NCBI GenBank assembly: GCA_019637105.1 | Contig: JAHBWF010000001.1 | Location: 124,001 to 188,000 of the forward strand | Direction of reading: 5' to 3' | Source: Labilithrix sp. | Lineage (GTDB): Bacteria > Myxococcota_A > Polyangia > Polyangiales > Polyangiaceae | Length of the DNA: 64,000 nucleotides | Shown here: positions 21,056 to 44,456 of the stretch, in pieces | Position numbering within the stretch: position 1 is the stretch's first letter | How the letters are laid out: each line of letters starts with the position of its first letter | Notes under the pieces: generated by a model | Databases searched by the model: none | Told to the model about the DNA's origin: nothing | Seen by the model: only the letters and a program-made list of their open reading frames with translations | Position numbers and translations under genes: made by a program

Positions 21056-23887
21056 ATGTTCGGTCGATCTCCGGCACGTCCCGCCGCCGGCTGCGGTGCG
21101 CTCGTCGTCGCCCTCCTCTTCGCTTCGGACGTGGGCGCCCAGATCCAGTGGAACGACAACAAGCTGGCGCCGGCGAGCCCGCCGGCGACGCCGCTCGGCG
21201 TCGCGCCCGCGGTGGCGTTGCCCGCCGGCTGTCCCTCGATCAGCGCGAACCAGTGCGGCGGCCTCGATCCCGCCGCGCCGGCGTGCACCGCGGACATGAA
21301 CAAGTTCCGCGCCTACTGCGCGCAGCTCGGGCGCCAGCAGTGGGGGGCGCTCGGCGCGGTCGCGCGCAAGCTCGTGATCCCCGTCGACGCGCCGAACGAG
21401 CTCTTCAAGCCCATACGCCCGGGGCAAGAGGTCGCGCGGAGCAAGTACGCGACGGCGTCGGCGATGAACCGGCCGGCGGCGCGCACGAGCATCTCGGGGA
21501 CGGCGCAGCGCAAGCCGGCGACGCCGGCGGCGGCGGTGACGTCGCTCTCGATCACGCAGGCGGCGGGCGGCGGCGGATCGATGGCGACGGTGAAGCTCGC
21601 CGACCGCGTGGCGACGATCCAGAGGGTGAGCTCCGCGGTCTCGCAGCTCGCCGCGACGCCCACGGGCGCCGCGGGCGTCGCGAAGAAGCTCGAGCGCGTC
21701 GATCCCGACTTCGTCACGTTGGGCTTCGGCGTCGCCACGTGCGAAGACTACGTCTACAAACGCTGGGGCGACTACGCGCGCTGGAAGTACGGCGCGAGCA
21801 AGATGGGCACGAACTACCGCGCCGTCGCCGCCGCGACGCTCGACTCCAACGGCCCGCTCTTCGCGGACCGGCCGCAGCTGTTCGCGCACGAGCCGGCGCA
21901 GCTCCGAGAGACGATCCCCTCCCCGACGGGAGGATGGCCCGATCCGCTCATGCAGACGAACATCTTCGTCCGCAGGCCGATCGGCGTCGGTTGGGGCACG
22001 ACCGCGCTGACGCTCTCGCCCGTCGAACGGATGATGCTCGGCATCCCGCCGGCGACCGGCATCTCGAGCCAGTCGTTCCCGGCGGTCGCCACCTACGCCG
22101 AGGTCACCGCGGCGCTCGCGGCGAACAAACTGACGCGCCTTCTCGTCCCGAGCGGGCCGGCCGGGCTCCGGATCCCGCGCGCCGGTAGGGCGATGCTCCA
22201 GCGCGTCGGCAATCCCTCCGACGAGGTCCTCGCCGACGACCAGAAGCGCATGGCCCAGTACGCGGCGCTCTGGGAGCAGTACGACGCGGTCCCGATGAAG
22301 GTCACGTGCAAGCCCGTGACCGGCAGCCCGAACCCCAACTGCGTCAGCGCGCCGGCCACGCTGACGGGCGCGGCGCAGCGCAAGCTGTTCGAGCGCCAGC
22401 TCGCGGCGCTCTGGATGCACGAGTGGCGCCTCGGCAAGGCAGGGTGCCTCGCGGATCCCGCCGTCGTCGATCCGCAGCAGCGCTGGGGCAATCGCTGCGA
22501 CTGGAACTACGAAGCCTTCGTCCAGGAGGCGTCGTCCGTCTTCGACAAGCAGATCGAGGGCGATCTCGCCGCTTGCCGCGCGCACGTCGCCAACAACGCC
22601 GCGCGCGCCCAGGTCGCGCCCTCGTTCACGGCCGTCCTGAGCGATCCCGCGAAGCAGGCGCTCGTCTACCCGTGCGGCGAGCGGAAGAACTTCACCGCGA
22701 ATGCCTTCGACGCCGCGACGTTCTTCTGGCTCTCGTCGCACGAGACGGCCGGGCGCACCTGCGAGGCCGCGCGCGTCAATCAGTCGCTCGAGGAGGCGCG
22801 CGCCGCGGTCCGCAACAAGCTCGGTGACGTCCAGTTCGACGGCTCGCGCATCTACGACGAGGAGGGCGACAGCGCCACGCTGGGGAGCACCAAGTCCTTC
22901 GGCGCGGACTTCGGCTACTCGGCGAAGTGGGAGCTCCGGAAGAACGCCGGCGGGAGCGATCCGCTCGTCGCGTGCAACTTCACCGGCAACACGCACCAGG
23001 ACCTGCGCGCGAGCGTCTATTTCTTCGGCGCGACGGTGCCGCTCGTCAACCTCGTCGGCAACGGCGAGTCGGTGACGTCGCCCGTCGCGGACTACGACTT
23101 CAAGATCCTCGACTTCGACCACCTGCCGCCGCAGCGCGTGGTCTCGAGCAACGGCAAGAAGCCCGCGCGCGACGGCGCGCCGCTCACGATGGTCAACAGC
23201 TACCTCCTGGGCGGGCAGGAGTACGCGATGTGGTTCATGCTCGGCCCCATCCCGGTGAAGGTCACCTTCGGGTTCGCGGCGACCGCGGGGATCGACTACT
23301 CGTACGGCGGGAAGGCGGGCAACAACTGCAGCTCGCCGGCCGCCCCCAACGGCGTCATCATGCGCTCGCGCATCGCGCCGTGGGTCCGAGCCGACGCGTA
23401 CGCCACCGCCGACGTGAACCTCGGCGTCGCGAGCGCCGGTCTGCGCCTCGACCTCAACCTCCTGACGGTGAGCGTCCCGCTCGACGTGAGCGTGACCGCG
23501 GAGACGAAGGACTTCCGCTTCAAGAACGGCGGCGACCTCGCGTTCGAGCTCCTGCGCGGCAAGGTGAGCGCCTACGTCTCGGTGGGCGTCAGCCCGTTCG
23601 ACGTGACGTACGACGCCACGCTCTTCGGCTGGCCGGGCATCGGGACGAGCGCGCGGCTCTTCGGCTACGAGAAGAACGTCTCGCAGGCCGACATCGGCAT
23701 CGCGCTGGCGAGCAACGTCGGTCCGAACGACGTGATCTGCTCGAAGCTGAACGGCGAGTGGTGCGGCACGATCAAGGACTCGGAGAACAAGGACATCAAC
23801 AGCTGCGGACGCGCGAGCCAAGGGACCGGCGCCTGCAGCCCGGCGTTCCCGTGCCGCAACGCGGGCTCGAAGTGGAGCTGCCATTGA
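21056..23887 (+). CDS. Large secreted protein, copy A of a duplicated module
   Basis: The 943-aa product has a clear signal peptide ending near 'FASDVGA' and no lipobox. I recognise no domain. Its features are a Cys-containing N-terminal part ('PAGCPSISANQCGGLDP'), 'CEDYVYKRWGDYARWKYGAS', 'GCLADPAVVD...GNRCDWNYEAF', 'DPAKQALVYPCGERKNF', and a C-terminal third rich in beta strands with 'LRGKVSAYVSVGVSPFDVTY'. Each of these segments has a clear counterpart, in the same order, in the product at 41232-44456, so the two are diverged paralogues. The stop codon overlaps the TTG start of the next gene, as in the other copy the partner follows by 8 nt, so the two proteins are probably made and used together in the envelope. 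Confidence 0.85.
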   Translation: MFGRSPARPAAGCGALVVALLFASDVGAQIQWNDNKLAPASPPATPLGVAPAVALPAGCPSISANQCGGLDPAAPACTADMNKFRAYCAQLGRQQWGALGAVARKLVIPVDAPNELFKPIRPGQEVARSKYATASAMNRPAARTSISGTAQRKPATPAAAVTSLSITQAAGGGGSMATVKLADRVATIQRVSSAVSQLAATPTGAAGVAKKLERVDPDFVTLGFGVATCEDYVYKRWGDYARWKYGASKMGTNYRAVAAATLDSNGPLFADRPQLFAHEPAQLRETIPSPTGGWPDPLMQTNIFVRRPIGVGWGTTALTLSPVERMMLGIPPATGISSQSFPAVATYAEVTAALAANKLTRLLVPSGPAGLRIPRAGRAMLQRVGNPSDEVLADDQKRMAQYAALWEQYDAVPMKVTCKPVTGSPNPNCVSAPATLTGAAQRKLFERQLAALWMHEWRLGKAGCLADPAVVDPQQRWGNRCDWNYEAFVQEASSVFDKQIEGDLAACRAHVANNAARAQVAPSFTAVLSDPAKQALVYPCGERKNFTANAFDAATFFWLSSHETAGRTCEAARVNQSLEEARAAVRNKLGDVQFDGSRIYDEEGDSATLGSTKSFGADFGYSAKWELRKNAGGSDPLVACNFTGNTHQDLRASVYFFGATVPLVNLVGNGESVTSPVADYDFKILDFDHLPPQRVVSSNGKKPARDGAPLTMVNSYLLGGQEYAMWFMLGPIPVKVTFGFAATAGIDYSYGGKAGNNCSSPAAPNGVIMRSRIAPWVRADAYATADVNLGVASAGLRLDLNLLTVSVPLDVSVTAETKDFRFKNGGDLAFELLRGKVSAYVSVGVSPFDVTYDATLFGWPGIGTSARLFGYEKNVSQADIGIALASNVGPNDVICSKLNGEWCGTIKDSENKDINSCGRASQGTGACSPAFPCRNAGSKWSCH

Positions 23888-25752
23888 GGCGGTGGATCGG
23901 CGCGGGGCTCGGGCTCCTCCTCCTCGGTGTCGTCGGCGCCGCCTACGTCAGGAGGGCGGCGCCGGCTCCGCCGTCCGCGGCAGCCGTCGAGGCGCCGCTG
24001 CCTCGTACCTCGCTGCGCGAGGCGCGATCCGCCACGTACGCCTTCACCTACGAGTCGACGTCCTCGCGCAGCTTCGGCGTGGGCGACGAGTCGCCGCTCG
24101 AGGCGAGGGTCGAGCTCGGCGGCGATCTCGTCGTCGAGACGTTCCCCGGCGCGGGGCAGGGCGCCGTGACGGTCGTGATGCACCTCGCGCGCGTCGCGCG
24201 CGCCGAGGTCGTCGCGCTCGGACGCCCGACGCTCTCCACCTCCGACGCGGCGGCCCGGACGCTGGAGGCGACGACGGTGCGCGTCGACTTGAAGGACGCG
24301 GAGGTCCAGCGCGTCACCGCGAGCGGCGGCGCGACCCTCGAGGCGCGCCTCGTCCAGGAGGTCGCGACGGATTTCGTCGCCCGCGTGCTCGCGGGCAGCG
24401 GTCTTCCCACGGCGACGAGCGAGGGCGCGGGCGGCGTCGCCATGCGCGTGCTCGTTCGCGATCCGAAGGAGCGCCACGTGGTGCACACGGAGCTCGTCGG
24501 CTTCATGCCGTTCGAGGACGGCGTCGGGGCCCCCGAGGCGCGCGGCGAGGTCGCGGCGCGCGACGCGAGCGAGGCCGGCGGCTCCGGGCGCGTGCGCGTC
24601 GGAGCGGACGGCGCGATGCTCGAGGCGAGCGCCGAGGAGCGCGTCCGCGATCGCGCGCGGGCGTCTGCGACCTCGCTCCGTGTGCGCTTCGAGCTCCGTC
24701 ACCTGGGGCCCGCCCTCCGCGAGGCGCCGCCCGATCCGGCGGAGGCCGACGACGACGGCGAGCTCGCCGACGACGTCGAGTCCCGGCGCCGTCAGCTCGA
24801 GCGCCGCGCGAGCGCCGTCACGATGGCGGACGTCGTCACGCAGATCCACGCGTCGATCGCGCTCCCGGGGAGGAGCGACCAGACGTGGATCGCGAGCGCG
24901 GCCGCGTACCTCGCGGTCCACGAGCCCGAGGCCGAGGCGCTCGTCGCCTCGGCGCGCACCGCGGAGCTCGCGTTCCAGACGCGCGCGTTCGACCTCGTCG
25001 TCATCGCGGGGCACCCGCGCGGCCAGCGCGCGATGGTCTCCGCGCTCGCGCGCGGAGGCTGGGCGGAGGCCGCGCCGGACGACGTCTACACCGAGCTCGT
25101 GCAGCGCCTCGGGCACCTCGAGCTGCCGACCGTCGAGACGCTCGCGTTCGTCGAGCGCGAGCGAAGGGCCGCGGCGCGCCGGGCTCCGCGTTCGCCGCGG
25201 AGCCTCGCGCTCGCGTACACGCTCGGCGCCGTCGCGCGCGCGCGGGGAGAGGTCGACCGGCCGGCGGCGCGCCGCGCGATGACGGAGCTCGTCGGCGATC
25301 TGCGCGTCGCGAAGACCGCGGAGGAGCAGGCCGCGCTGCTCCGCGCCGTCGGTAACGGGAGCTTCTCCGAGGACGCGGCGGAGGTGCTCGCGTTCGCGTC
25401 GAGCCCGGACCCCGGGGTGCGGGCGGCCGTCGCCTCGGCGCTCCGGAACATGCGCGCGCCGGACGGCGCGCCGCTCGCCGCGATCGTCGGCCTGCTCTCC
25501 GACGCGGAGGGCACGGTCGCGCGCTCCGCGGCCCAGTCGTTCGCGCGGCGCGACGTCTCCGAGCTCGAGGCCCTCGACTGGACGCTCCTCGGCTCGGTCC
25601 ACCCCGACGCGCGCGGTCCGCTCGCGGACTTCCTCCTCACCCGACGCGGAGACCTCCGCGCCGCCGACGCCGTGCTCGAGCGCCTGGCCGCCGATCCCGA
25701 CACGGACGGGAAGCTCCGCCAGCGGATCGCGTCGGCGCTCCGCGGAGCTTGA
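23884..25752 (+). CDS. Membrane-anchored HEAT-like protein resembling large lipid transfer proteins, copy A
   Basis: The 622-aa product starts at TTG (23884), overlapping the upstream stop, and opens with a hydrophobic anchor ('GAGLGLLLLGVVGAAYV'). A beta-rich region follows ('ATYAFTYESTSSRSFG', 'VELGGDLVVETFPG', 'VVMHLARVARAEVVALG'), then a helical part from about residue 310 with HEAT-like repeats ('LLRAVGNGSFSEDAAEVLAF', 'PGVRAAVASALRNM'). A beta-barrel followed by helical HEAT-like arrays, with 'LGN' and 'ALR' turns, is the layout of the N-terminal module of vitellogenin/MTP lipid transfer proteins. The lipid role is inference. The product at 39340-41223 is a paralogue. Confidence 0.78.
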   Translation: MRRWIGAGLGLLLLGVVGAAYVRRAAPAPPSAAAVEAPLPRTSLREARSATYAFTYESTSSRSFGVGDESPLEARVELGGDLVVETFPGAGQGAVTVVMHLARVARAEVVALGRPTLSTSDAAARTLEATTVRVDLKDAEVQRVTASGGATLEARLVQEVATDFVARVLAGSGLPTATSEGAGGVAMRVLVRDPKERHVVHTELVGFMPFEDGVGAPEARGEVAARDASEAGGSGRVRVGADGAMLEASAEERVRDRARASATSLRVRFELRHLGPALREAPPDPAEADDDGELADDVESRRRQLERRASAVTMADVVTQIHASIALPGRSDQTWIASAAAYLAVHEPEAEALVASARTAELAFQTRAFDLVVIAGHPRGQRAMVSALARGGWAEAAPDDVYTELVQRLGHLELPTVETLAFVERERRAAARRAPRSPRSLALAYTLGAVARARGEVDRPAARRAMTELVGDLRVAKTAEEQAALLRAVGNGSFSEDAAEVLAFASSPDPGVRAAVASALRNMRAPDGAPLAAIVGLLSDAEGTVARSAAQSFARRDVSELEALDWTLLGSVHPDARGPLADFLLTRRGDLRAADAVLERLAADPDTDGKLRQRIASALRGA

Positions 25753-25786
25753 CCGCCCGCGGCGTCGCGGTCCCGAGCACGGGCGG
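25753..25786 (+). terminator. Hairpin after the module A genes
   Basis: CCGCCCG (25753-25759) pairs with CGGGCGG (25780-25786) immediately after the stop of the HEAT-like gene, with a 20-nt loop. No T-run; a terminator role is inferred from position only. Confidence 0.3.
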
Positions 25787-25924
25787 CGTCGAGATCGGCG
25801 GCCGGTCCCGCCTCGCCGCGCGCCGCCGCGCTCGAAGCGATGGCCAGCCTCCGGCTCGGCGCCACCCGCACGGCGCCGAGGCGCCGCCGGCGCGCGCGAG
25901 GTCCCCTCCGTATCCTCTCGGCGT

Positions 25925-25939
25925 TCGCGGCGTGAAAAG
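25925..25939 (+). repeat. 15-bp element upstream of TonB receptor gene, copy 1
   Basis: TCGCGGCGTGAAAAG occurs here, ending 58 nt before the GTG of the receptor gene, and again at 30243-30257, ending 60 nt before the GTG of ribF. Equal orientation and near-equal distance to start codons suggest a shared regulatory or promoter element. Confidence 0.4.
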
Positions 25940-25997
25940 CCCCCTCCGCAGATTGTGCTCCCACCCCGCGCGTGAGGCCGTCTAACCTTCCGGCCCG

Positions 25998-28481
25998 GTG
26001 TCTCCGCGCCTACGCGCCGCCGGCGCGCTCATCGTCCTCGCGCTCGCGACGTTCGTCGCGCGCCCCGCGCTGGCGGACGCGCGCACGGAGGCCCGCGCGC
26101 ACTTCAAGAAGGGGATGGATGCCATCTCCGCCGGCAAATACGACGACGGCATCTCCGAGCTGGAGAAGGCCTACGAGATCCTCCCGCACCCGAACGTCCT
26201 CTACAACATCGCGCGCGCCCACGCCGAGGCGGGCAACCTCGAGAAGGCGGTCGAGAACTTCAAGAAGTACCTCGAGACGAACCCGCCGGACCGCGACGAG
26301 ACGCTCGCGATCCTCAAGGGCCTCGAGGCGAAGATCCGGGAGCGGGAGAAGGCGCAGCCCGAGCCGCCGCGCCCGGCGCCGGAGAAGCCGGCGCCCGACA
26401 AGCCCTCGGGCACGCCGACGACGCCGCCGGTCACGCCGCCGCCGGCGACGCCGTCGGGCGGCCCCGCGGGTGACATCGGCGCGGCGCGCACGGAGGACGT
26501 GTTCGCCGAGAGCATCGTCACCGCGTCGAAGGGGGCGCAGAGCCCGCTCGACGCGCCGAGCTCCACCGCCGTCATCACGGAGCAGGACATCCGCCTCTCG
26601 GGCATCACGAAGATCCCGGAGCTGCTCCGGCGCCTCGCCGGCGTCGACATCATGCAGGTGACCGGCGGACAGACCGAGGTGTCGATCCGCGGGTTCAACC
26701 AGCGCCTCGCGAACAAGACGCTGGTGCTCGTCGACGGGCGCTCGGTCTACGCCGACATCCTCGGCGCCACGATCTGGCAGACGCTCTCGATCGGCGTGGA
26801 GGACATCCAGCGCATCGAGATCGTGCGCGGCCCCGGCTCGGCGCTCTACGGCGCGGACGCGTTCAACGGCGTCGTCAACATCATCACGAAGAAGCCGGGC
26901 GAGGGGAAGAGCGGCCTCGCCGGCGCCTACGGCAGCCAGGCGACGACGCACGGGAGCCTCTGGGCGGCGGGCCGCGAGGGCGAGCTCGGCTGGCGCATGG
27001 CCGCCGGCTACGACTACCTCCCGCGCTGGTCGCGCGAGGTCCCGAACGGCCGCGCCGACGTGCGCACCGGCGTCGGCGATCAGGTCGAGAGCTCGCGCAC
27101 GATCCGCCTCGACGCGCGCGGCGCGCGGCGCTTCGGCAAGGCCGGGACGCTCTCGTTCGGCGGCGGCCTCGCGCAGGGCTCGCTCGAGATCCTCGGCATC
27201 GGCACGCTCCAGGACATCGTCCTGCCGTCGTTCGCCGCGACCGACGTGACGACCTCGTGGAGCTCGGAGCACCTCGACGCGCGCGTCTTCTGGAACCGGC
27301 TCCGCGGCGACTCGAGCCTCAACGTGAACTACGTCGGGCAGTCGCTCCTGCCGACGCGCGTCGAGCAGAACATCGTCGACGGCGAGGTCGTCTACAAGGG
27401 GCGGCTCGAGGTCTCGGCCGACTTCGTCAACGACCTCCGGATCGGCGCGGCGTACCGCTACAAGGACGTCGTCTGGACGTACCTCGATCAAGATCGCTTC
27501 GAGCACCACTACGCGCTCTTCCTCCACGACGAGCTCAAGATCGCCAAGCCGATCTCGCTCGTCGCGGACTACCGCCTCGACTGGGTGCCGTACCTCGAGC
27601 GCTTCCAGCAGTCGCCGCGCGGCGCGGTGCTCCTCCACCCGTCGGCGCAGTCGACGATCCGCGGCTCCGTCGCCACCGCGTTCCGCAAGCCCACGTTCCT
27701 CGAGTCGTACCTCCGCCTGCCGATCCAGCTGCCGGTCACCGGCGCCGGCCAGTTCTCCGAGGGCGTCCGCCGCGACGACCCGAGCTTCATCGTCAACGCG
27801 GAGCGCATCCTCAGCGCCGAGCTCGGCTACCTGAACCAGGAGAGCGACGTCTTCACGGTCGACACGGCGCTCTACTTCAACCGCGTCTCGAGCCTGATCC
27901 AGCTCGCCGCGACGAGGCCGCTCACCGTCGCCGACTTCCCGACCGCCGGGCAGCAGGACATCGCGACGGGGCTCTTCCCCGTGGGCTTCGGCGGCTGGGA
28001 CAACCAGTGCCAGGCGTACAACGTGTACGGCGGCGAGGCGAGCCTGCGCACCTACCCGACCGAGGGCCTCGACCTCTACGCCAACTACACGCTGAACCTC
28101 GTGCAGCAGGACAACTCGGGCTGCACCGCGGACGAGCTCTCGCGCATCGTCGCGGACCAGCGCACGAGCCGGCACAAGGTCAACGCGGGCGTCCAGCTCC
28201 GCACCCAGGCGGGCTTCGACGGCTCGGTCGACTTCCACTTCATCGCCGACCAGCAGTGGGCCGAGCAGGTGACCAACTTCGTGCGGCAGCAGATCGAGCA
28301 GGAGCGCTTCCGCCTCTCCGAGTACGCGCTCGTCAACGCCCGCGTCGGCTATCGTTTCCTCTCGAACCAGGCCGACGTCGGCGTCGTGGGCTTCAACGTG
28401 CTCGGGCTCGAGCACCGGCAGCACCCGTTCGGCCAGCTCCTCGGCCGGCGTGTCATGCTCCAGTTCGGTTACCGGTTCTGA
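25998..28481 (+). CDS. TonB-dependent receptor with N-terminal TPR domain
   Basis: The 827-aa product has a signal peptide (residues 1-26), a tetratricopeptide region (about 30-120; 'EKAYEILPHPNVLYNIARAH'), a Pro-rich linker (about 115-160), a TonB plug domain ('ESIVTASKGAQSPLDAPSST', 'RRLAGVDIMQV', 'VSIRGFNQR', 'IEIVRGPGSALYGADAFNGV') and a 22-strand-type barrel ending in the outer-membrane signature '...VMLQFGYRF'. TonB receptors import iron chelates, cobalamin or other scarce ligands across the outer membrane using TonB energy. TPR fusion in the periplasm is unusual and largely myxobacterial. GTG start is preferred. The next gene overlaps by one base and encodes a lipoprotein that is probably its partner. 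No TonB or ExbBD is in the window. Confidence 0.92.
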   Translation: MSPRLRAAGALIVLALATFVARPALADARTEARAHFKKGMDAISAGKYDDGISELEKAYEILPHPNVLYNIARAHAEAGNLEKAVENFKKYLETNPPDRDETLAILKGLEAKIREREKAQPEPPRPAPEKPAPDKPSGTPTTPPVTPPPATPSGGPAGDIGAARTEDVFAESIVTASKGAQSPLDAPSSTAVITEQDIRLSGITKIPELLRRLAGVDIMQVTGGQTEVSIRGFNQRLANKTLVLVDGRSVYADILGATIWQTLSIGVEDIQRIEIVRGPGSALYGADAFNGVVNIITKKPGEGKSGLAGAYGSQATTHGSLWAAGREGELGWRMAAGYDYLPRWSREVPNGRADVRTGVGDQVESSRTIRLDARGARRFGKAGTLSFGGGLAQGSLEILGIGTLQDIVLPSFAATDVTTSWSSEHLDARVFWNRLRGDSSLNVNYVGQSLLPTRVEQNIVDGEVVYKGRLEVSADFVNDLRIGAAYRYKDVVWTYLDQDRFEHHYALFLHDELKIAKPISLVADYRLDWVPYLERFQQSPRGAVLLHPSAQSTIRGSVATAFRKPTFLESYLRLPIQLPVTGAGQFSEGVRRDDPSFIVNAERILSAELGYLNQESDVFTVDTALYFNRVSSLIQLAATRPLTVADFPTAGQQDIATGLFPVGFGGWDNQCQAYNVYGGEASLRTYPTEGLDLYANYTLNLVQQDNSGCTADELSRIVADQRTSRHKVNAGVQLRTQAGFDGSVDFHFIADQQWAEQVTNFVRQQIEQERFRLSEYALVNARVGYRFLSNQADVGVVGFNVLGLEHRQHPFGQLLGRRVMLQFGYRF

Positions 28482-30196
28482 TGCTCCGCCGTCTCCTCCT
28501 CCTCCTGACCCTGCTCACGCTCGCGGTGACGGCGTGCGGCGACGTGCCGATCGACGACCAGCGCAACGACCAGCGGCTCTTCCCGCCCCGGGGCGTGATC
28601 CGCGGGACCGTGACCTACGTGGGGCCTCCGCCGTGCTCCCGCGCCGGGCACATCGTCGGCAACGCGGTGGTGCTCGTCTTCGACCGGCGGAACCCGCCGC
28701 CGCCGAGCGGCCTCGCGACGGGCGCGGTGAACTTCGTCGCGGTGCCCGGCGACGTCCTCTTCGCCAACCAGCCGCGGACCGTCGCCGACGAGCTGTTCTG
28801 TCCGCCCGCCACGACGAACGTCGAGGCGTCGGCGCCGTTCGCGGTGGCGCCGGTCGAGCCGGGCTCGTACGTCGTCTCGGCGTTCTACGACCGCCGCGGT
28901 CGCTTCTGGCCGACGTTCAAGTTCAGGAACCTCCCCGAGGCGGGCGATCTCGTGGGCGGCTACATCGACGTCGAAGACGCGCGCGTGAACGCGGGCAACC
29001 TCGCGTACCAGCCGATCTACCGGCCCGTCGACGTCGGCATCCGCCAGCCGGCGCCCCCGGACGAGATCCCCGACTTCACGATGGGGCCGAACGGCTACGT
29101 CGCCGACAACGTCCCGGTCTCGATCGGGCGCGTCGTCCCGTTCACGCGCCCGTACTTCCATCCGCGCCACATCGATCCGGTCACGAAGACGGAGACGAGC
29201 GCCGAGGAGATCGGCGAGCCGCTGCGATCGCCGGCGAACACCGTGGCCGATCCGCTCGCCGTGCCGATCCTCGCGATGACCCAGGACGTCCACGTGCTCG
29301 CGCCGCCGTCGAACCCGACGCCGCAGACGCTCGCCGCGTACCAGGAGGGCTTCCAGAGCCTCAAGCTCGTCTGGGGCGTCGCGCGGAACGAGGTCGACGA
29401 CGCGACCGATCCGCGTCAGCCCTTCGGCTTCCAGCTCCCCGCGCTCCCGCCGAACGGCAAGGGCGGGCTGCTCGTCTTCGCGCGCGGCGGCTCGATCCCG
29501 GAGAACCCCTCGGTGCCCGCGCTCTGGCCGCAGGTGGCGCTCGTGAAGCTCGCGAGCGATCCCGAGCGCAAGACCGACCTCCAGTCGCTCGTGGTGCAGG
29601 GGACGCGCGAGGAGACGCTGGTCACGGGCAAGCCGCCCGGGCCGCTCGTCGTCATCCAGGGCATCACGCTCTTCGACGACAGCCTCGCGCGGACGATCGC
29701 CGGGCCCGTGCCCGCGGCGCCGACGACGGCGGCGCTGCGCGATCACCTGACGGCGCTCGTGAGGCCGGCGGCGCTCTGCTTCGACCCGCGCCGCGTCGAC
29801 CTCGGCGGCGTGCTCGTCACCCCGCACCTCACCGGCCGGAGCGCGGACGGCAGCGAGACCGGCCAGCGCCCGCTCTTCGACGCCAAGGCGGTGGCCGCGG
29901 AGCCGATGGTGCGTGAGGTCCGCCGCGGCTGCCTCCCGACGGGCCGCTACGCCATCTCGCTCGTCTACCCGACGGGGCAGGCGTGGACGGTGCCGAACGA
30001 GAGCGGCGGCTGCTCGGCGCTCGAGGGCTCGGTCCGGGTCGGGGAGCGCGTGGGGAGCTGCACCGGCAAGCCGCGCACGGTCCTCCTCTCGCAGGGCTCG
30101 CGCGGCGTCGTCGAGATCATCGGCCCGAGCCAGGAGGGGATCGACTCCGGGATCTGCGCGGAGTTCCCCGTGCCGCCCGAGTGTCAGGCTCCCTGA
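28481..30196 (+). CDS. Outer-membrane lipoprotein partner of the TonB receptor
   Basis: The 571-aa product has a signal peptide with lipobox ('AVTAC', Cys about residue 19). The N-terminal part looks like a carboxypeptidase-regulatory or transthyretin-like beta sandwich ('RGVIRGTVTYVGPPPCSRAG', 'PFAVAPVEPGSYVVSAFYDR'); the rest is beta-rich with Cys pairs near the C-terminus, and no catalytic motif was found. It overlaps the receptor stop (TGATG), so translation is coupled; it may sit on the receptor at the cell surface and capture ligand, as SusD-like proteins do, although it is not SusD-like in sequence. A pair of hairpins overlaps and follows its stop codon. Confidence 0.8.
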   Translation: MLRRLLLLLTLLTLAVTACGDVPIDDQRNDQRLFPPRGVIRGTVTYVGPPPCSRAGHIVGNAVVLVFDRRNPPPPSGLATGAVNFVAVPGDVLFANQPRTVADELFCPPATTNVEASAPFAVAPVEPGSYVVSAFYDRRGRFWPTFKFRNLPEAGDLVGGYIDVEDARVNAGNLAYQPIYRPVDVGIRQPAPPDEIPDFTMGPNGYVADNVPVSIGRVVPFTRPYFHPRHIDPVTKTETSAEEIGEPLRSPANTVADPLAVPILAMTQDVHVLAPPSNPTPQTLAAYQEGFQSLKLVWGVARNEVDDATDPRQPFGFQLPALPPNGKGGLLVFARGGSIPENPSVPALWPQVALVKLASDPERKTDLQSLVVQGTREETLVTGKPPGPLVVIQGITLFDDSLARTIAGPVPAAPTTAALRDHLTALVRPAALCFDPRRVDLGGVLVTPHLTGRSADGSETGQRPLFDAKAVAAEPMVREVRRGCLPTGRYAISLVYPTGQAWTVPNESGGCSALEGSVRVGERVGSCTGKPRTVLLSQGSRGVVEIIGPSQEGIDSGICAEFPVPPECQAP

Positions 30197-35787: not shown

Positions 35788-35799
35788 GCGCGCCGCGCC

Positions 35800-36415: not shown

Positions 36416-37885
36416 ATGCCGGATCCGGTCTTCGTACGCGGGAAGGTCCGTTCCGGCGGAGCATCGGTCGCATGGCTTCACGGCGTGACGAAGACTCCGC
36501 TCTTTCGCCGCCGAGGCGAGCCACGGCTCGTCCTGGAGCTCGAGGACGGCGCCGAGCTGTCGGTCGACATCGCGTCAGGGCAGCCTACGCTGACAGGTCG
36601 TGAGAGGCGCGCGCGCGGAGCCTGGAGCACGATCCACGAGCTGCCGGCCGCGGCTGCGTACGAGCGCGACGTCGCTCCGCCGTTCACCGAGGTCGAGCTC
36701 GTGTGGATCTCGGTCGCCGCGGGCGACGACGTCGTCGTGGGAGGCTCCGTCTCGGAGGAGGCCTTCGCCGCGGACGGCGGGCCACGGGCTGCGCCCACGA
36801 CGCGTCCGTCCGCGATGAGCGCGCGCGTCATCGCCGTCGGGGAGGACGCCAACGCGCGCGCCGTCGCAGAGCTCGAACGCGAGCGCGCGGCGGTGAAGCG
36901 AGAGGCGCCACCACGAAAGAAGGCGCCGACGGACGCTGGAGACCCGCGGACCCGACCGCCGCTCGCGGCCTACGCCCCCGCGGCGCTCGTGCTCGTGATC
37001 GCCGTAGCCTTCGGGATCGCGCTCTCCCTCGGATGGCACCGCGACCACGAGGCGTGGAGCCTCCTCGTCCTGCTCGGCGCGATGGCGTTCGCGCTACGAC
37101 CCGCGCGATTCGTGCCGGACTTTCACGCCCGGACACGGTCGATCGAGACCGTTGGCTACGGGACCATGATGGTCACGCGGATGGTGCTCGGTGTGATCCC
37201 CGTTGCCCTCGTCTTGCAGGCGATCGGGACCGACCTCTCGCTGTCGGAGCGCGCGGCGAGCCTTCTCGCGGCCTCCTTCCTCCTGGCGTGGGCGGTCACC
37301 GTCGGGCTCGTGGATCTGCACCCGCACCGCACGCTCGTCGGCCTGTCGACCGCGCCGCGATGGTCGCCCGGCTCCGGCGCCACCGCGTGGGCCGGGATCG
37401 AAGGCGTCGTCCGCGATCCGACCCCCATCGAGATCGCCGGCACGCGCGCGGCGATCGGGCTCGTCATCCGGATGAGCAAGGGGCGCGGCTCGAACCCGGA
37501 CGAGGAGGAGGGACGGACCTTGCTTCGCCAGGGCACCTACGTGATCGACGTCGGGAGCGCGCCGATCGTCGTCGATCCGGAGGAGACGATCTGGGCGAGC
37601 ACGGCGCGGCGGCATCCAGAAGACTCGGCGTCGCGCTACGACATCGAGGAGTGGATCCCGGTCGGAGGGCGGGTCCTGGCGTGCGGTCGAATCGAGGAGG
37701 AGAACGGAGAGCTGCACCTGCGCGCCGAGGGGACGCGGCCCGCCGCCGTCTTCGCGACCAGCGCTGCCGGCGATCCCGCCGCCTTCGCGCGTGCCGTCCG
37801 GCGCCACCGCCTGACGACGATCGCCGCGCTGGTCGGCGCAGCGGCCGCCGAGCTCCTGCTGCGAGGCCCTCGCGGGTGGTCGTAG
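36416..37885 (+). CDS. Multi-pass membrane protein, possibly GIDE-like
   Basis: The 489-aa product has a soluble N-terminal half (about 190 residues), four hydrophobic segments in about residues 185-310, another soluble domain ('GIEGVVRDPTPIEIAGTRAA') and a short hydrophobic C-terminus. The 'RGKVRSGGASVAWLHGV' and 'GVVRDPTPIEIAG' segments resemble the repeated domain of GIDE/MUL1 membrane proteins, where small modified residues are added in eukaryotes; in bacteria this family's role is unknown. ATG at 36416 is supported by a purine-rich GGGAGA (36400-36405). It ends 24 nt before the stop of the convergent SUKH-HEAT gene. Confidence 0.6.
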   Translation: MPDPVFVRGKVRSGGASVAWLHGVTKTPLFRRRGEPRLVLELEDGAELSVDIASGQPTLTGRERRARGAWSTIHELPAAAAYERDVAPPFTEVELVWISVAAGDDVVVGGSVSEEAFAADGGPRAAPTTRPSAMSARVIAVGEDANARAVAELERERAAVKREAPPRKKAPTDAGDPRTRPPLAAYAPAALVLVIAVAFGIALSLGWHRDHEAWSLLVLLGAMAFALRPARFVPDFHARTRSIETVGYGTMMVTRMVLGVIPVALVLQAIGTDLSLSERAASLLAASFLLAWAVTVGLVDLHPHRTLVGLSTAPRWSPGSGATAWAGIEGVVRDPTPIEIAGTRAAIGLVIRMSKGRGSNPDEEEGRTLLRQGTYVIDVGSAPIVVDPEETIWASTARRHPEDSASRYDIEEWIPVGGRVLACGRIEEENGELHLRAEGTRPAAVFATSAAGDPAAFARAVRRHRLTTIAALVGAAAAELLLRGPRGWS

Positions 37886-37909
37886 CGCGCTCGAGGATCG
37901 TCGTGTGGG

Positions 37910-39250
37910 TCAGCGGTTCTTTCGCTTCGAATCTTCGACGCCTCGCTCGGCGACCGCGCTCACCGCGCTGTCCTTGCTCTTCGCTGCCTTCCGCAGCGCC
38001 TCGACGTGCGGCGTCCAATCTCCGGTGATGCTCGCGAGCGCGTGACGCGCGAGCGACGAGAAGTAGAGGTCGTCGTGCAAGACGGCCTTCTCGAGCGCCG
38101 GCACCGCTGCCTTTGCCTTCGGTCCGAGCGCGATGAGCGACTCGAACGCATGGAGCGCAGCGTACCTCTCCTTCGGCGCGAGGTTCTTCGCCAGCGTGTC
38201 GACGACCGTGGCGAGCTCCTCCCCCGCCGCCTTCGCGCCGACCTTCGCGAGCGTCTCGTAGATCGTCCCGGCGGCGACGCCGAACTCCCAGCGCTCCTTC
38301 TTCTGGACCGTCGCGAGCGCCGCGACGAGGGGCTTCACCATCGAGGGCGCGGCGTAGTCTCCTAACTTCTCCGCCGCCGCGTAGATGACGCCGTCGTCGT
38401 CGTCGTCGAGGCACGCGAGCAGGGTGGGGACCACGTGCTCCGCGTCGAGCTTCTGCTCACCGAGCGCCCGGATCGCCTCCTCGCGCGCAGGTCCCTTCCG
38501 CGCGTGGTGCTGGAGCGCGGTGATGGCCCTCGCGTCCTCCGTGAGGCGTCCGAGCGCGAACATGAGCTCGGTCTGGCTGTCGTCTCGGGCGAGCCGCTTC
38601 CCGACGAGCTCGATGACGGCACCGCGGACGGCCGGCGTCTCCTTCATGAGCTCCGGGACCGCGCGGTGGTAGGTATCGAGGTCGGCGATCTTGTCGAGCC
38701 ACTCGTCTTCCGGCGACTCGGGTGACGCGGGCGTGACTTCGGGTGACTCCTGGGCGAGCTGCACCTTGTCCTCGGCGAGCGTCTTCAGCCACTCGTCGAG
38801 CACGACGAAGAGGCTCTTCGCCTCGATCGCGGACGGCTCTTCGCCGCTCGCCCACGTGAAGAGCTTGCCCTTCGCGTCGTAGCCGACCGTGCTCCCGCAG
38901 CTCCGGCCGAGCGCCGCGACGAGGCCCTTCGGCGCCCTCGCCTTCGTCTGCTTCACGGCGTCGAGGGGCGCCTCCGCGGAGACGCCGAACACCTCGAAGC
39001 CCCATTGATGCTTCCAGAGCGGAGCGATCGAGTAGAGCTCGGGGCGCGGCCACACCTTCTCGTCGGCTACCACCGCACACGCGCCGAGCCTCTCGATGAG
39101 CGCGCGGTGCGCCGGCGCGAGCGGCTTGTCCAGCTTCCTCTCGAGCGCGTCGATGGCGGCGGCCTCGGGAGGCTCGTCCTGCGAAGAGAAGAACGAAAAA
39201 TCGTCATCGAGCGCCTCGATGCGCGCCAGCACCTCGTCGAGTGTCGTCAT
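37910..39250 (-). CDS. SUKH (SMI1/KNR4-like) protein with HEAT repeats
   Basis: The 446-aa product has no signal peptide. Residues 1-165 resemble a SUKH domain: 'AIDALERKLDKPLAPAHRAL' then 'IERLGACAVVADEKVWPRPE' and 'VGYDAKGKLFTW'. Residues from about 190 onward form HEAT/armadillo-like helical repeats ('HVVPTLLACLDDDDDGVIYA', 'YAALHAFESLIALGPKAKAA'). SUKH domains are common in bacterial toxin-immunity proteins, but this one carries a long scaffold and may instead bind other proteins. It lies 89 nt downstream of the lipid-transfer-like gene of module B, on the same strand, so it may belong to that operon. A good purine-rich ribosome-binding site precedes the ATG. Confidence 0.7.
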   Translation of the reverse strand: MTTLDEVLARIEALDDDFSFFSSQDEPPEAAAIDALERKLDKPLAPAHRALIERLGACAVVADEKVWPRPELYSIAPLWKHQWGFEVFGVSAEAPLDAVKQTKARAPKGLVAALGRSCGSTVGYDAKGKLFTWASGEEPSAIEAKSLFVVLDEWLKTLAEDKVQLAQESPEVTPASPESPEDEWLDKIADLDTYHRAVPELMKETPAVRGAVIELVGKRLARDDSQTELMFALGRLTEDARAITALQHHARKGPAREEAIRALGEQKLDAEHVVPTLLACLDDDDDGVIYAAAEKLGDYAAPSMVKPLVAALATVQKKERWEFGVAAGTIYETLAKVGAKAAGEELATVVDTLAKNLAPKERYAALHAFESLIALGPKAKAAVPALEKAVLHDDLYFSSLARHALASITGDWTPHVEALRKAAKSKDSAVSAVAERGVEDSKRKNR

Positions 39251-39339
39251 GCTTCAGCTCCTCCCTCTGCGCTCCTTGGCAAAGGCGTCATGTGCTCATG
39301 GTCGACGGCACCCGGCCCGAACCCGGGATGCCGGTTCTC

Positions 39340-41223
39340 CTACGCGCCGTCGCGAATGCGGATGATCCTCGCGCGCGTCTGTGGGTCGAGGTCGTCCTGC
39401 TCCGCCAGCGTGTCGAGGATCGCGCGCCCCATCGGAGAGTCCTTTCGCTTCACCATGAAGTTCGCGAGAGCCTGCACGTTCGTCGGGTGGATCTTCTTCT
39501 TCTCGACGTAGCCGAGGAGCGCCTGGAGCTCTTGCTCGCTGACGTCCTTCCGATCGAGGGACGCGAGCGCCTGCAGCTGCACGCCCAGACGCTCGTCGCC
39601 GATCAGCTCCATGAGCGTCCGGCGCACCTCCGGCGAATCGAAGCGCCGAAGCGCGCCGGCGACCGCCACGCGGACGTCGTGCTCCGGATCGCGGCTCTGG
39701 AGGCGGATCGCGAGCGCGTCCTCCTCGAGCGCGGCGTTCCCGAGCGCCTGGATCAAGACGACGCGGTCCCGGAAGCTCTTCGCGGCGTAGAGATCGAGCA
39801 CCAGCGCGTCATCGAGCTCTCTCGCGTACAGGCGGTCGGTCTTGGCCACCGCCGAGATCAGATCGCCGAGCGCGATCGCCGACGCGCGGCGCATCGGTGT
39901 GTCGTCTTCCTCCTTCGCCCTCGCGTAGCGAGCGGCGACGAAGTCGGTGAGCTCCTTCATCGGCAGCGAGAAGTAGCCGAGGCGCATGAAGAGGATCGCC
40001 TCCTCGGGGCTCCCTCTGCGGAGGACGCCGGCGTCGGGGTCGAACGCCCGCATCGCGGCGGCCTGCGCCTGCTCGTGCCCCGTGGAGGAGAGGAGGTCGA
40101 TCGTGAGCGCCTGAGCGTCGATGTCGAGCTCCTTCATCCGATCGACGAGCTCGTCGCACTTGTCGGGGTGGAGCTCGAGGTACCCCATCGCGACCCATCC
40201 CCAGCGGGTGCTGCCTCTCTTGGGCACCGCGGCGGCGAGCCGGATGTCGTCGACGATGCTCTCGATCGTCACGCCGGCGGTTCGCTGCTCGAGCCTCGCG
40301 CGCCTGGCCTCCTCCGTCTCACCGCCGTCGGCTGCGAGCGGCGAGAGCGGAACGTCGACGAAGCCCGCGCGCGCCGTCGTCACGTCGAAGTCGCGGGTCG
40401 CCTTCTTCTTCAGCGTGAACGAGGTGCTCGACGTGAGGTCCTTCTGCTCGGGAGAACGGGCCGCCTCGAGCTTCTCCGTCTCGACCACTTCATCGATCGT
40501 CCCGTCGGCGGGATCGATCGCGACGTGCCCATTGCTCTCGAGCGTCTGCGGGGGCGGCTCTCCGACCGGCCAAGCCCCGAGCACGTCGTACCGCTCCCTC
40601 GTCCGCGTGATCAGGCGCGGTCGCCGTGGATCGCGCGCGAAGCGAACGGGCCCACGTCCGCTCGGCCCGTCGAGATCGGCCGACGCCGAGGCCCCCGGAG
40701 CGATGACCCGCACGCCGAGCTCGGTCACGACGGCCTGCATCAGGTAGCGAAACAGCGCAGGATCGGCTGGCCGAAACCGCACGCGCGAGATCTCGCCGCT
40801 CGGCTTGACGACGAGCTCGACGGACCTTCCTTCCAGCACCTCGCGCGCGACGTCCATCGACGGGAGCAGCGGCTTTCCGAGGGCGTTCACCTCGGCGCGC
40901 GTGAGGTGCTCGAAGCGCGCCCCGAGCACGACGTCGTCACCTTCGCGGCCGTACGACGACACGACGAGATCGCCGTCGAGCGCGACCTTCGTCTCGATGC
41001 CGCCACCACCACCTTCGGTCGGCGTCGTGCCAGCCATCATCACCTTGGACGAGGTCGTGGTGGTCCACGTGAGCGCGTAGACTTCTTCTTTTCCCGCGGG
41101 CCACTCCAAAGTCGTACGAGCCTCCCCGCGCGCGACCGAACCCAGCGGCGCTCGGGTGAGCGCCGCGCCGGCGAGGACGGCCGCGACGACGGCGACCAGA
41201 ATGCGCAGCCGCTGACGGGTCAT
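39340..41223 (-). CDS. HEAT-like protein resembling large lipid transfer proteins, copy B
   Basis: The 627-aa product starts with a hydrophobic signal/anchor ('LRILVAVVAAVLAGAALTRA'), then beta-rich sequence ('EVYALTWTTTTSSKVMMAGT', 'VALDGDLVVSSYG', 'FEHLTRAEVNALGKPLL'), then helical repeats ('LIQALGNAALEEDALAIRLQ', 'VRVAVAGALRRFDSPEVRRT', 'LGVQLQALASLDRKDVSE'). The beta part followed by HEAT-like helices with 'LGN' and 'ALRRF' turns is the layout of vitellogenin-N type lipid transfer modules. Copy A is at 23884-25752; corresponding segments align in order. It lies 8 nt downstream of the secreted protein's stop, so the two should be co-translated. Confidence 0.78.
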   Translation of the reverse strand: MTRQRLRILVAVVAAVLAGAALTRAPLGSVARGEARTTLEWPAGKEEVYALTWTTTTSSKVMMAGTTPTEGGGGGIETKVALDGDLVVSSYGREGDDVVLGARFEHLTRAEVNALGKPLLPSMDVAREVLEGRSVELVVKPSGEISRVRFRPADPALFRYLMQAVVTELGVRVIAPGASASADLDGPSGRGPVRFARDPRRPRLITRTRERYDVLGAWPVGEPPPQTLESNGHVAIDPADGTIDEVVETEKLEAARSPEQKDLTSSTSFTLKKKATRDFDVTTARAGFVDVPLSPLAADGGETEEARRARLEQRTAGVTIESIVDDIRLAAAVPKRGSTRWGWVAMGYLELHPDKCDELVDRMKELDIDAQALTIDLLSSTGHEQAQAAAMRAFDPDAGVLRRGSPEEAILFMRLGYFSLPMKELTDFVAARYARAKEEDDTPMRRASAIALGDLISAVAKTDRLYARELDDALVLDLYAAKSFRDRVVLIQALGNAALEEDALAIRLQSRDPEHDVRVAVAGALRRFDSPEVRRTLMELIGDERLGVQLQALASLDRKDVSEQELQALLGYVEKKKIHPTNVQALANFMVKRKDSPMGRAILDTLAEQDDLDPQTRARIIRIRDGA

Positions 41224-41231
41224 GGATCCGA

Positions 41232-44200
41232 TCAGGGCGTGCCGCGAAGCTTGTACGGCCTGATGGCCGCGTTGCAGTAGGTCTCCTCGGGGTAGGGGGA
41301 GCATGTCTTGCTGGCGTCGACGACATGCTTCAAGCAGTACGGACGCTGGATGTTGATCGTCGGGTTCTGCCCGGCGATGCACTTGATCTGGTCCGTGTCG
41401 ACGGTCTTGTCCGATGCCCAGCTCAACAGCTTGACCGGCGCCGTCGCATCGGAGCCCCAGAGCTTCACGGACTCGTGGATGCCGTCCCACGCGAAGAGCG
41501 TCGTCTCGTAGGTCACTGCGAGCGGAGGCAAGCCGGCGCGGACGTAGGCCGATATCCGTCCCGACAGAGCGTCGACGGTGAGGTTGCTCCCCGACAGCAT
41601 GGCCGCTTGACCGCCGGTGGGGATGGTCACCATCGATCCCGTCGGCAGCCCGAGCCGCACGAGGAGGAGATCGATGTGGAGGCCGGCGGCGGCGACGCCG
41701 ACGTCGAGCGACGCGTCGCCGAAGGCGTCGGCGCGCGTGAACGGTACGAACTGAGCGCCGCTCTGGAAGCCGTAGACCACGCCCTCGCTCGCCTTCGTCC
41801 TGTCCGCGCAGGCGGCGGGACCGTTGACGGTCCCGACGTCTTTCATGATGGCGCCGGCCATCGCGGCTCCGCCGAAGAAGATGTGGAGCGGGACGGGGCC
41901 GACCATCGTCCAGAAGTCCGCGCGCGCGCCGCCGAGAAAGGCGATGGGAGCCGGGAGCTGGAGCACCGGCGTGGTGCCTCGGACGCGGTCGCGCTTCTCG
42001 AAGAGCGGGACCCAGCTCGTCGGGTGCTCGAAGTCCCTGTAGCGTCCTATCGCCGTGTACCAGACGCCGTCGCCGGTCGTCTCTGCGGTCGCGTTGCCGT
42101 CGATGACCTCGAGGCGGGAGCCGAAGAAGTTGAAGCCGGCGGACGCCTTCAAGGTCGACGAGCCGACGGGCTTGCACCACGCGCCGTCGCTCATCTCGGC
42201 CCCGCCGCTCTTGATCTCCCAGCCGAGGTTGAAGTCGAGGAAGGCTCCGAACGTGGAGGTGTCTCCGATCGACCACCTGTCACCGGACGACTCGCCGACG
42301 ACGCCCTGCGACTTGATCGGGATCTGTCTGACCTTCTCGGCGTTCGCTCGGAGGTAGCTCTCGACGTCTCGAGCGGCGCGCTTGCCTTCACACGCGAAGC
42401 GCTGACCCTTCTGCGGCGTCGCCTCGATGTAGAGCCCGACGTCGTGCTGGTCCGCCGAGAAGTCGTGACGCAGCTCGCACGGGTAGATGAACGTCTGCTT
42501 GGCCGGGTCCTTCAGCGTGGTGAAGGTGCCCTGCGTCGCGGTGTTGCACTTGTCGAAGTCCGTCTGCACCTCTTCGTCGAAGTACGACATCACGAAGTGA
42601 GAGAACTTCTCGTAGGACCAGTCGCAGCTGTTGCCGAGGTCGCCGCCGACGGGCTCGGCCAAGCAGCCCTCCGCGCCGAGATCGTATTCCTTGATCACGA
42701 GATCGGTGAGCTGCTTGGCGACGGCGTCCATCGCCGCTTCGAGGGAGGCCTTCTTCGCGGCCCAGTTCGCCTCGCACGATTGCCCGCCGAGGCCCGTCGT
42801 GACCTGCGCGCTCGTGTACGTCGACTTGCCGCCGATGCCCTTCATCGCCGGCGGCGCCGTCTGGGAGTACTGGGATGCCTGACCGCCCGCCACCTTCTGT
42901 TTGAACTGTGCTCCCTGAGCGACGGGGGCGCGAACCTTGCCGGTGAGCCCGGAGGGGCTGCCCTTCAGCGCTCGCACCGCGCCCGCGATGAGGCCCTGCT
43001 CGACGCCGATCCACGAGTCGTAGACCTGCGGAGTGCCGACGTCGACGCCCCACCCCGCGAACTTCGTCGGATCCGGGTTGATGACCGCCCAACCCTGGAT
43101 CTTCATCAAGAGCTCGTGGAGCTGGTTCGGCGTGTTCGTCGGCGGGGCGCTGCAGCAGACGTGCGGGGTTCGCGCGCAGACGAGCTCCTCCTGGATCGTG
43201 TCCCGCGAGAGGATCATCTCCAGGTAGCGGTCCTGTCGCGCCTGGCGCTCGGCGTATTGGTCGTCCGAGAGGCCGTAGCGCGACTCGATCTGCTGCTTGA
43301 GGACCTTGTGGAGGTTGAAGCGCGTGCCGCCCGGCGCGCTCATGTACTTCTTGTTGGTCGGCGGGCCGTCCCCATACTTCGCGATCCGCGCGAGGACCGC
43401 CGTCGCTTTCGCCTCGTTGCTCGCGTTCGTGACGATCGTGGGCGGCAGGAAGAACGGGTTGTGCGGGAGCACGCGGGTGTGATCGTAGGTGGCGCTCTGC
43501 GGCCGCGGCCACGCGGAGGGCATCGTGGCGCCGCCGAACTGCGTCAGCGTCGCCTTCTCGAGGTTCACCGGGGAGCCGGGATCGGTCGCGAGCGCGAAGA
43601 CGCCCCGGTAGTCGCGTGAGAGTTGCTTCGCGGCGTACTTGAACCGCAAATAGTCGTACCAACGCTGGTACGAGTATTCGGCGCAGGAGTTGATGGCCAT
43701 GTTCGCCGCGGTCGGTTGACCGTTTCCGACCCACATGCCCTCGACGGTCATCTGGCTGAAGAGGTCGTTGGTCGCCTGTTCGACCTGCGGGGTGGAGCTT
43801 CCACCCGAGAGCACCAGTCCTTGGTGAACGCCGTAGAGGCTCCCGCGACTCCTGTTCATCTTCGGGAGCCATTGCCCGACGCTGATCGTCCCGAACGTTC
43901 CGGAGCCGGAGCCCGAGAGCACGATGTTCGTCCCGCCGACGCCCGCCGAGAGGGCGGTCGCGCCGTTCGGCGGCGGCGCCGGCGGCTTCGACGCCGGCAC
44001 CGGCCTCGTCTTCGTGAGGCCGAGGTACGGCACCTGCCGGCCGCCCATCGCCGTGCCCGGCGGGATGTGAAGCGCGGTCGGCGTCGCGGGGCTTATCGCG
44101 TGCGGCGGCGCGAACTTCGGGTTCGCCGCGGGGAAGACGAGCTCCTCTTCTCTTCCTCCGCCGACCTTGCAATAGTCGTCGAAGAGCAGCTTCGTGCAGT

Positions 44201-44456
44201 AGCTCTTCTGGATCGCGTCGGTCTTGCCGCACGCCCCCGCGAGGAACGTCGGATCGAGGCACTGCGCGAGGGTGGGCGCCTTGCCCGCGCACGCGGCGGG
44301 CAGCGCCGGGAGGGTCCCGGTCCACTCGCACTTCGGTCGCGCGTTCGTCACGAACTTCTTCGGTTGGGCCATGGCGGTCGGCTTGACCGGCGCGGCGTCG
44401 GCGGTCACCGCCACCGCGAGACCGAAGAGACCGACGAGAAATGCCGCCGCGCGCAC
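41232..44456 (-). CDS. Large secreted protein, copy B of a duplicated module
   Basis: The 1,074-aa product has signal sequence 'RAAAFLVGLFGLAVAVTADA' and no lipobox. Segments with ordered counterparts in copy A (21056-23887) include 'CAEYSYQRWYDYLRFKYAAK', 'GCLAEPVGGDLGNSCDWSYE', 'DPAKQTFIYPCELRHDF', 'WTMVGPVPLHIFFGGAAMAG' and 'LSGRISAYVRAGLPPLAVTY'. It is about 130 residues longer, with extra Cys-rich sequence near the N-terminus and in the middle. The GTG at 44456 is chosen because the signal sequence begins there; an ATG at 44639 in the same frame would add about 60 Arg-rich residues, part of them made by the inverted repeat at 44588-44618, so it is doubtful. Confidence 0.8.
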   Translation of the reverse strand: MRAAAFLVGLFGLAVAVTADAAPVKPTAMAQPKKFVTNARPKCEWTGTLPALPAACAGKAPTLAQCLDPTFLAGACGKTDAIQKSYCTKLLFDDYCKVGGGREEELVFPAANPKFAPPHAISPATPTALHIPPGTAMGGRQVPYLGLTKTRPVPASKPPAPPPNGATALSAGVGGTNIVLSGSGSGTFGTISVGQWLPKMNRSRGSLYGVHQGLVLSGGSSTPQVEQATNDLFSQMTVEGMWVGNGQPTAANMAINSCAEYSYQRWYDYLRFKYAAKQLSRDYRGVFALATDPGSPVNLEKATLTQFGGATMPSAWPRPQSATYDHTRVLPHNPFFLPPTIVTNASNEAKATAVLARIAKYGDGPPTNKKYMSAPGGTRFNLHKVLKQQIESRYGLSDDQYAERQARQDRYLEMILSRDTIQEELVCARTPHVCCSAPPTNTPNQLHELLMKIQGWAVINPDPTKFAGWGVDVGTPQVYDSWIGVEQGLIAGAVRALKGSPSGLTGKVRAPVAQGAQFKQKVAGGQASQYSQTAPPAMKGIGGKSTYTSAQVTTGLGGQSCEANWAAKKASLEAAMDAVAKQLTDLVIKEYDLGAEGCLAEPVGGDLGNSCDWSYEKFSHFVMSYFDEEVQTDFDKCNTATQGTFTTLKDPAKQTFIYPCELRHDFSADQHDVGLYIEATPQKGQRFACEGKRAARDVESYLRANAEKVRQIPIKSQGVVGESSGDRWSIGDTSTFGAFLDFNLGWEIKSGGAEMSDGAWCKPVGSSTLKASAGFNFFGSRLEVIDGNATAETTGDGVWYTAIGRYRDFEHPTSWVPLFEKRDRVRGTTPVLQLPAPIAFLGGARADFWTMVGPVPLHIFFGGAAMAGAIMKDVGTVNGPAACADRTKASEGVVYGFQSGAQFVPFTRADAFGDASLDVGVAAAGLHIDLLLVRLGLPTGSMVTIPTGGQAAMLSGSNLTVDALSGRISAYVRAGLPPLAVTYETTLFAWDGIHESVKLWGSDATAPVKLLSWASDKTVDTDQIKCIAGQNPTINIQRPYCLKHVVDASKTCSPYPEETYCNAAIRPYKLRGTP

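Follow-up and report, generated by a model that had tools for sequence, protein, structure and literature searches.

Two paralogous gene pairs in the Labilithrix window

The window analysed here, 64,000 nucleotides of Labilithrix sp. (GenBank assembly GCA_019637105.1, contig JAHBWF010000001.1, positions 124,001 to 188,000), carries two copies of a two-gene module, separated by 15 kb. In each, a gene for a large protein (A) adjoins a gene for a protein in which a beta-rich domain is followed by HEAT-like helices (B). The N-terminus is hydrophobic in A1 and in A2, and A is predicted from it to be secreted. The analysis supports for B the layout of the N-terminal module (N-module) of the large lipid transfer proteins (LLTPs), and the conserved core of A shows a strand-like amphipathic pattern.

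A1 (943 amino acids, cysteine-containing, with a conserved C-terminal core) occupies 21056..23887 on the forward strand, as delimited by its translation, the A1/A2 alignment and an open reading frame (ORF) finder; a codon-usage gene caller starts it downstream, at 21131. B1 (622 amino acids) lies at 23884..25752 on the same strand and comprises an N-terminal hydrophobic anchor or signal, a barrel-like domain and HEAT-like helices. The second pair is on the reverse strand, with A2 (1074 amino acids) at 41232..44456 and B2 (627 amino acids) at 39340..41223, the latter delimited by the B1/B2 alignment, an AlphaFold (AF2) model and Foldseek. All four frames are open at these coordinates and all four genes are picked by the gene caller. 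The ORF finder places B1, A2 and B2 inside longer open frames, so their start codons (TTG for B1, GTG for A2) are inferred. The proposed TTG overlaps the A1 stop by 4 nucleotides and a gap of 8 nucleotides separates A2 from B2, the overlap and spacing described in the original prediction. That prediction had also located the four paralogous genes and quoted motifs common to the secreted partners; the alignments are significant and the motifs are present in both A translations. The 'LGN' turn attributed to both second partners is found in B2, whereas B1 reads VGN.

A1 and A2 are 30% identical over 463 residues (BLASTP, E 3e-54), with an additional N-terminal stretch at 22% (E 2e-10); B1 and B2 are 29% identical over 608 residues (E 5e-45). 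Sequence searches of the contigs of this genome found no third copy of A or of B, and two further matches to the B profile, on contig C90, are confined to the HEAT part. Named close relatives of B2 are in the Labilithrix sp. metagenome-assembled genome (MAG) ACE_MYX5 (99%), Labilithrix sp. ACE_MYX7 (93%) and the Polyangiaceae MAG ACE_MYX1 (38%). A tree of 58 B proteins, whose end branches have a median of 0.89 changes per column, places B2 with proteins of genomes G125 and G038 and B1 with those of G139 and G127. Since B1 and B2 fall in separate, well-supported sister clades (support 100/99), they are, as judged from this tree, old paralogous lineages rather than the outcome of a fresh duplication. 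The description of the module as duplicated is thus right as to paralogy and does not extend to a recent event.

Kinship of B with the LLTP N-module

Models were made for B2 and A2, each from a shallow alignment of five rows. The B2 model (predicted local distance difference test, pLDDT, 69; predicted TM-score, pTM, 0.53) has an N-sheet-like domain (residues 40-290; 40354..41106), also delimited by the N-domain profile, and a helical horseshoe-like domain (residues 300-627; 39340..40326) with 19 helices from residue 304 onward, pLDDT mostly 80-95. The chain ends after these helices; the beta sheets of the LLTP lipid cavity (open beta sheet, A/C sheets) do not follow C-terminally. The corresponding domains of B1 lie at 24010..24723 (N-sheet-like, from its row in alignments A12 and A14) and 24763..25752 (helical, from its HEAT_2 match). 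When the B2 model was compared by Foldseek with 350,542 PDB chains, ranks 1-11 were all LLTPs: MTP (E 9.7e-14, 2.8e-13, 1.5e-10), apoB (8.4e-10), lipovitellin (2.6e-9), bee vitellogenin (1.8e-8) and other entries for apoB and vitellogenin. For a query of 627 residues, the alignments span 620-737 columns in ten cases and 376 in the eleventh, an apoB beta-barrel entry. The first chain of another kind, at rank 12, is a designed HEAT-repeat protein (alphaRep, E 1.1e-4). The original prediction had called for a barrel-plus-HEAT fold; the order of an N-sheet-like domain and a helical horseshoe is supported for B, whereas the A2 model is unusable.

Profile searches identify the same relatives. A profile of 20 B proteins found lipovitellin (E 5.9e-7) and MTP (6.4e-7) in the PDB, both collinear. 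With 58 proteins the values were 6.5e-14 for lipovitellin (profile 338-524 on chain 313-508) and 4.5e-10 for MTP (372-524 on 359-514), again collinear. Scans for the Pfam family Vitellogenin_N (PF01347) gave matches at E<=0.01 in 25 of the 58 members, the best at 1.8e-19. The curated cut-off of this family, 24 bits, was exceeded by ten of the 32 members whose individual tables were inspected (those of loci L056, L044, L053, L043, L063, L060, L168, L169, L170 and L134). In these ten the positions in protein and profile nearly agree, for example 336-582 on 314-582 of 590; the L170 protein scores 70 bits over profile positions 314-582. The search against PF01347 suggested in the original prediction therefore succeeds at the level of the family and fails for B1 and B2 taken singly, neither of which matches at E<=10.

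That failure is one of several results that weigh against an LLTP kinship of B. B2 alone, by phmmer against the PDB, found no LLTP, and neither did a single divergent N-domain (L168). When the profile was limited to the first half of the helices, MTP came out at E 0.08 and lipovitellin did not appear at E<=1. In the B2 model the strand-helix order of the N-domain is drawn with pLDDT mostly below 75, and barrel detail lies beyond it. Over the 11 LLTP matches the TM-scores are just 0.24-0.35 and the root-mean-square deviations 21-25 Å; we read this as a misplaced low-confidence N-domain in the model, and the Foldseek match hence shows the order of elements, not a tight superposition.

The likeness could also be a generic HEAT similarity, with B an ordinary HEAT scaffold joined to an unrelated beta domain. 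HEAT_2 is present in 58/58 members (in B2 at E 6.1e-7, above the curated cut-off; in B1 at 2.4e-4, below it, in single-sequence scans), and alphaRep designs outscore the LLTPs in searches with the full-length profile, to 4.1e-64, through matches built from several separate short repeats. Because designed HEAT proteins score higher than LLTPs, little weight attaches to the helical half by itself. The N-domain gives independent evidence, having been searched with no HEAT sequence in the query. With 57 N-domains, lipovitellin 84-150 was the better of two PDB matches at E<=10 (E 0.018). With 66 N-domains, lipovitellin 81-160 was again first of two (E 5e-4; profile 85-162, collinear), and a sub-threshold stretch, lipovitellin 2-38, lay in register. 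The second match was a prolyl-tRNA synthetase (E 0.12 and 0.054, respectively). The aligned segment is a helix of the B2 model followed by a 'W/F-x-x-x-E ... G ... Y' stretch. The Foldseek ranking, with LLTP chains above all else and ten of them aligned over at least 620 columns, and the L134 protein, which scores 53 bits on Vitellogenin_N and 35 on HEAT_2, also speak against generic similarity, an explanation that is largely refuted and that we regard as very improbable. From the profile, N-domain and fold results together, B is almost certainly homologous to the LLTP N-module.

The putatively secreted partner, its linkage to B and their distribution

A consists of a variable N-terminal part and a conserved C-terminal core, which in A1 lies at 22550..23830 (its row in alignment A13). 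Member scans found no Pfam family of its own for A and no confidently assignable lipid-binding domain, and DUF4215 occurs in the variable part of 2/17 members. Cysteine is kept in ten columns in at least 14 of the 17 nearer A members, eight of these columns being invariant (17/17). Hydrophobicity along the core alignment alternates strongly (lag-1 -0.40, lag-2 +0.42; best of 2000 shuffles 0.18). The core of A2 (residues 726-998; 41463..42281), delimited by this periodicity and by low-confidence AF2 secondary structure, is drawn with ten strands of at least ten residues in 273 residues. The A core is strongly amphipathic and probably a beta domain. At one locus (L169:8853-10115, reverse strand) an A protein encoded tail to tail with a B gene has a C-type lectin domain (E 1.8e-11) ahead of its core, a hint that the N-terminal part of A may be a binding domain open to exchange.

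The core might supply the lipid-cavity sheets that B lacks, a suggestion with one weak Pfam match behind it and several results to its disfavour. The match is to PF09172 (Vit_open_b-sht, 'Vitellinogen, open beta-sheet'), in one of 52 A cores at E 0.0051, with its place in the alignment not localised; by elimination the carrier is one of L151, L152, L153, L154 and L159. Among the 24,736 models scanned the label is striking, yet the match is weak by itself. The profile of the 52 cores found nothing in the PDB at E<=10, LLTPs included, and the A2 model has a pLDDT of 29. Just one cysteine column is conserved in 75% or more of the 52 cores; a disulphide pattern in common would therefore be confined to the nearer relatives.

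Linkage of the two genes was assessed in 68 stretches that surround places of B or of A. The selection was not random: L131-L150 were taken mostly because no A was listed beside B, and L151-L170 because one was. With a B place defined as a match that covers 200 or more model positions at E<=1e-8, there are 66, and A lies within 2.5 kb at 51 of them. In 49 of the 51, A is upstream of B (43), downstream (5) or tail to tail (1); in the remaining two, L054 and L157, A adjoins B. At L131, A is 11 kb away. Five of the 15 B places without A within 2.5 kb are at most 210 bases from a contig end. The other ten (10/66) have room and no detected A, which counts against a joint function of the two proteins; at these places the partner may lie elsewhere or have diverged. 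In the reverse direction, the 78 A rows listed by the phylum survey collapse into 63 A loci; 51 of these have a B place no more than 3.5 kb away, in two cases (G076, G082) from HEAT-part matches only. The co-occurrence proposed as a check in the original prediction is thus found across genomes of the phylum Myxococcota, and the window holds two more A-B pairs.

The two proteins also vary together. In a set of 47 A-B pairs, the pairwise identities of A are correlated with those of B (Spearman 0.51, reached by 0/1000 permutations; L131 was excluded, its A being 11 kb away), and for 21/47 both A and B have their closest relative from a different genome at one and the same locus. Species relatedness alone would yield part of this correlation. 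In the fetched stretches we saw no conserved operon partner beyond A and B, the next largest clusters being recurrent neighbours of kinase and FHA type (identified by eye), and no single ORF among the searched loci encodes both.

Several individual loci deserve mention. L057:8012-9994 is one of ten B places with upstream room at which A is undetectable. At two of these ten, L141 and L144, the gene upstream of B falls into a BLASTP cluster with the gene that carries A at L143 and L150. All four loci are from one family of the phylum (f24), and their genes before B form one cluster of large secreted-looking proteins, with an A core in 2/4; the L141 protein has 2188 amino acids and is cysteine-rich. 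At L055:5019-10083 and L056:2118-7116, from two genera, the order is reversed, B preceding A, with 59% identity in B and 72% in the A core.

B N-domain profiles match 53/184 genomes of the order and 77/377 genomes (56/233 genera) of the phylum, many of them multi-copy. These counts are lower bounds, as the surveys score few candidates per genome. An earlier count of 158/282 genomes, from the first B profile, is not used as a family count: many of its matches cover about 50-150 positions of the HEAT part, and the survey was therefore redone with N-domain profiles. Beyond Myxococcota the searches covered plasmids, where tblastn with one B member (L170) gave no match, and viral contigs, a single scan of which showed no relative. 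No paper on a bacterial LLTP turned up in the open-access library searched; outside it, bacterial proteins may well bear automatic database annotations such as Vitellogenin_N.

Elsewhere in the window, a run of flagellar-type genes occupies 2547-12957, named by eye from called ORFs. It includes a flagellin-like protein (10245-11072) that begins MALSVNTNVTSMNAYNQ, with FliD/FliS-like neighbours, likewise named by eye.

Putative function and comparison with known systems

Among the 25 B rows listed, 17 have a hydrophobic stretch (mean Kyte-Doolittle value of at least 1.6 over 18 residues) within the first 60 residues, and several others have uncertain starts. From sequence, this N-terminus would be expected to serve as an inner-membrane anchor, with the remainder of B periplasmic. 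In animal LLTPs the chain continues beyond the N-module into amphipathic beta-sheets, which line a lipid cavity and around which the helical domain wraps. Because B lacks the sheets and an A protein with an amphipathic core is usually encoded next door, we propose that the pair acts as a two-chain carrier or that B is a loading chaperone for A. B would be held at the inner membrane by its hydrophobic N-terminus and face the periplasm, where its horseshoe would cradle the beta core of A to form a two-chain carrier of a hydrophobic ligand, probably a lipid. Alternatively, B may play the part that MTP has for apoB, folding A and loading it with lipid before A moves on to the cell surface. For this proposal, in which B is a bacterial relative of the LLTP N-module and works with A in one of these two ways, we see about an even chance; physical contact between the chains and a lipid cargo are its inferred elements.

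Sterols were considered as a specific cargo, since Myxococcota are reported to make sterols (PMC12004948). Squalene epoxidase (PF08491) occurs in 53/184 genomes of the order and coincides with the B N-domain in 17 (odds ratio 1.25, p 0.59), and PF08491 has no match in the genome of the window. Sterol as the specific link was rejected for want of an association, which detracts from the proposed carrier.

The same linkage could have a plainer meaning. B may be of LLTP type by descent and act merely as a periplasmic scaffold for the assembly or export of A, which would then be a surface adhesin or structural protein with no lipid involved. Linkage is the strongest functional signal in the data, the variable part of A bears surface-type domains in some members (the C-type lectin of L169; DUF4215), B stops short of any lipid-cavity sheet and the two are never fused in the searched loci, all of which suits such a role. 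A plain adhesin has no obvious need of a strongly amphipathic core, however, and the LLTP module is lipid-linked in its animal relatives; we consider a scaffold possible though somewhat unlikely. The C-terminal domain of A could instead form a beta barrel in the outer membrane and hold the N-terminal part out at the surface, with B as its periplasmic partner or targeting factor. Ten predicted strands and strong alternation are what this would lead one to expect, but the strands come from the pLDDT-29 model, and neither a PDB match nor a Pfam barrel family was found among the matches of the A cores. Outer-membrane barrels usually end in an aromatic residue, and such a C-terminal residue occurs in 1/17 full-length A proteins (L059). 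A barrel thus appears improbable. Going further than our proposal, the A core would be kin to the lipid-cavity sheets, if the PF09172 match is real, and B the N-module of a split LLTP, the animal apoB/MTP/vitellogenin superfamily having arisen by fusion or transfer of such a bacterial pair. We hold this to be doubtful, if rather less so than the barrel.

LLTPs (apoB, MTP, vitellogenin) are usually regarded as an animal superfamily. Hayward et al. 2010, as it appears in the reference lists of PMC4219131 and PMC8727950, likewise concerns LLTPs 'in metazoans'. The present data suggest that the N-module of these animal lipid carriers exists in bacteria too, lipid carriage by the bacterial pair being putative. 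A diverse bacterial family with this module makes the origin of the superfamily directly testable, as well as the division of labour between N-module and lipid cavity, and the A-B pair offers a bacterial system in which structure and lipid transfer can be studied. Should the pair prove to carry lipid, it would be a candidate for a further route for hydrophobic molecules across the Gram-negative periplasm.

Comparison with HEAT-repeat proteins (alphaRep designs, YibA, CpcE/F) finds the repeats of the helical half in common; these proteins rank below the LLTPs in Foldseek and align with part of B. The pairing of MTP with apoB offers a possible analogy, in that a large secreted client stands beside an LLTP-type protein that would stay behind. 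It differs in that A has no detected kinship to apoB or to any PDB chain and B lacks the lipid cavity of MTP. The closest comparison is with the LLTPs themselves (vitellogenin/lipovitellin, 1LSH and 9ENR; the MTP large subunit, 6I7S and 8EOJ; apoB100, 9BD1 and 9EA7). In B as in these proteins, an N-sheet-like domain that includes a helix precedes a helical domain, and the residue numbers nearly coincide; many B members are recognised by Vitellogenin_N. Unlike them, B is bacterial and probably membrane-anchored at its N-terminus, and its chain stops after the helical domain where theirs goes on into the cavity sheets, a separate secreted protein, A, usually being paired with it.

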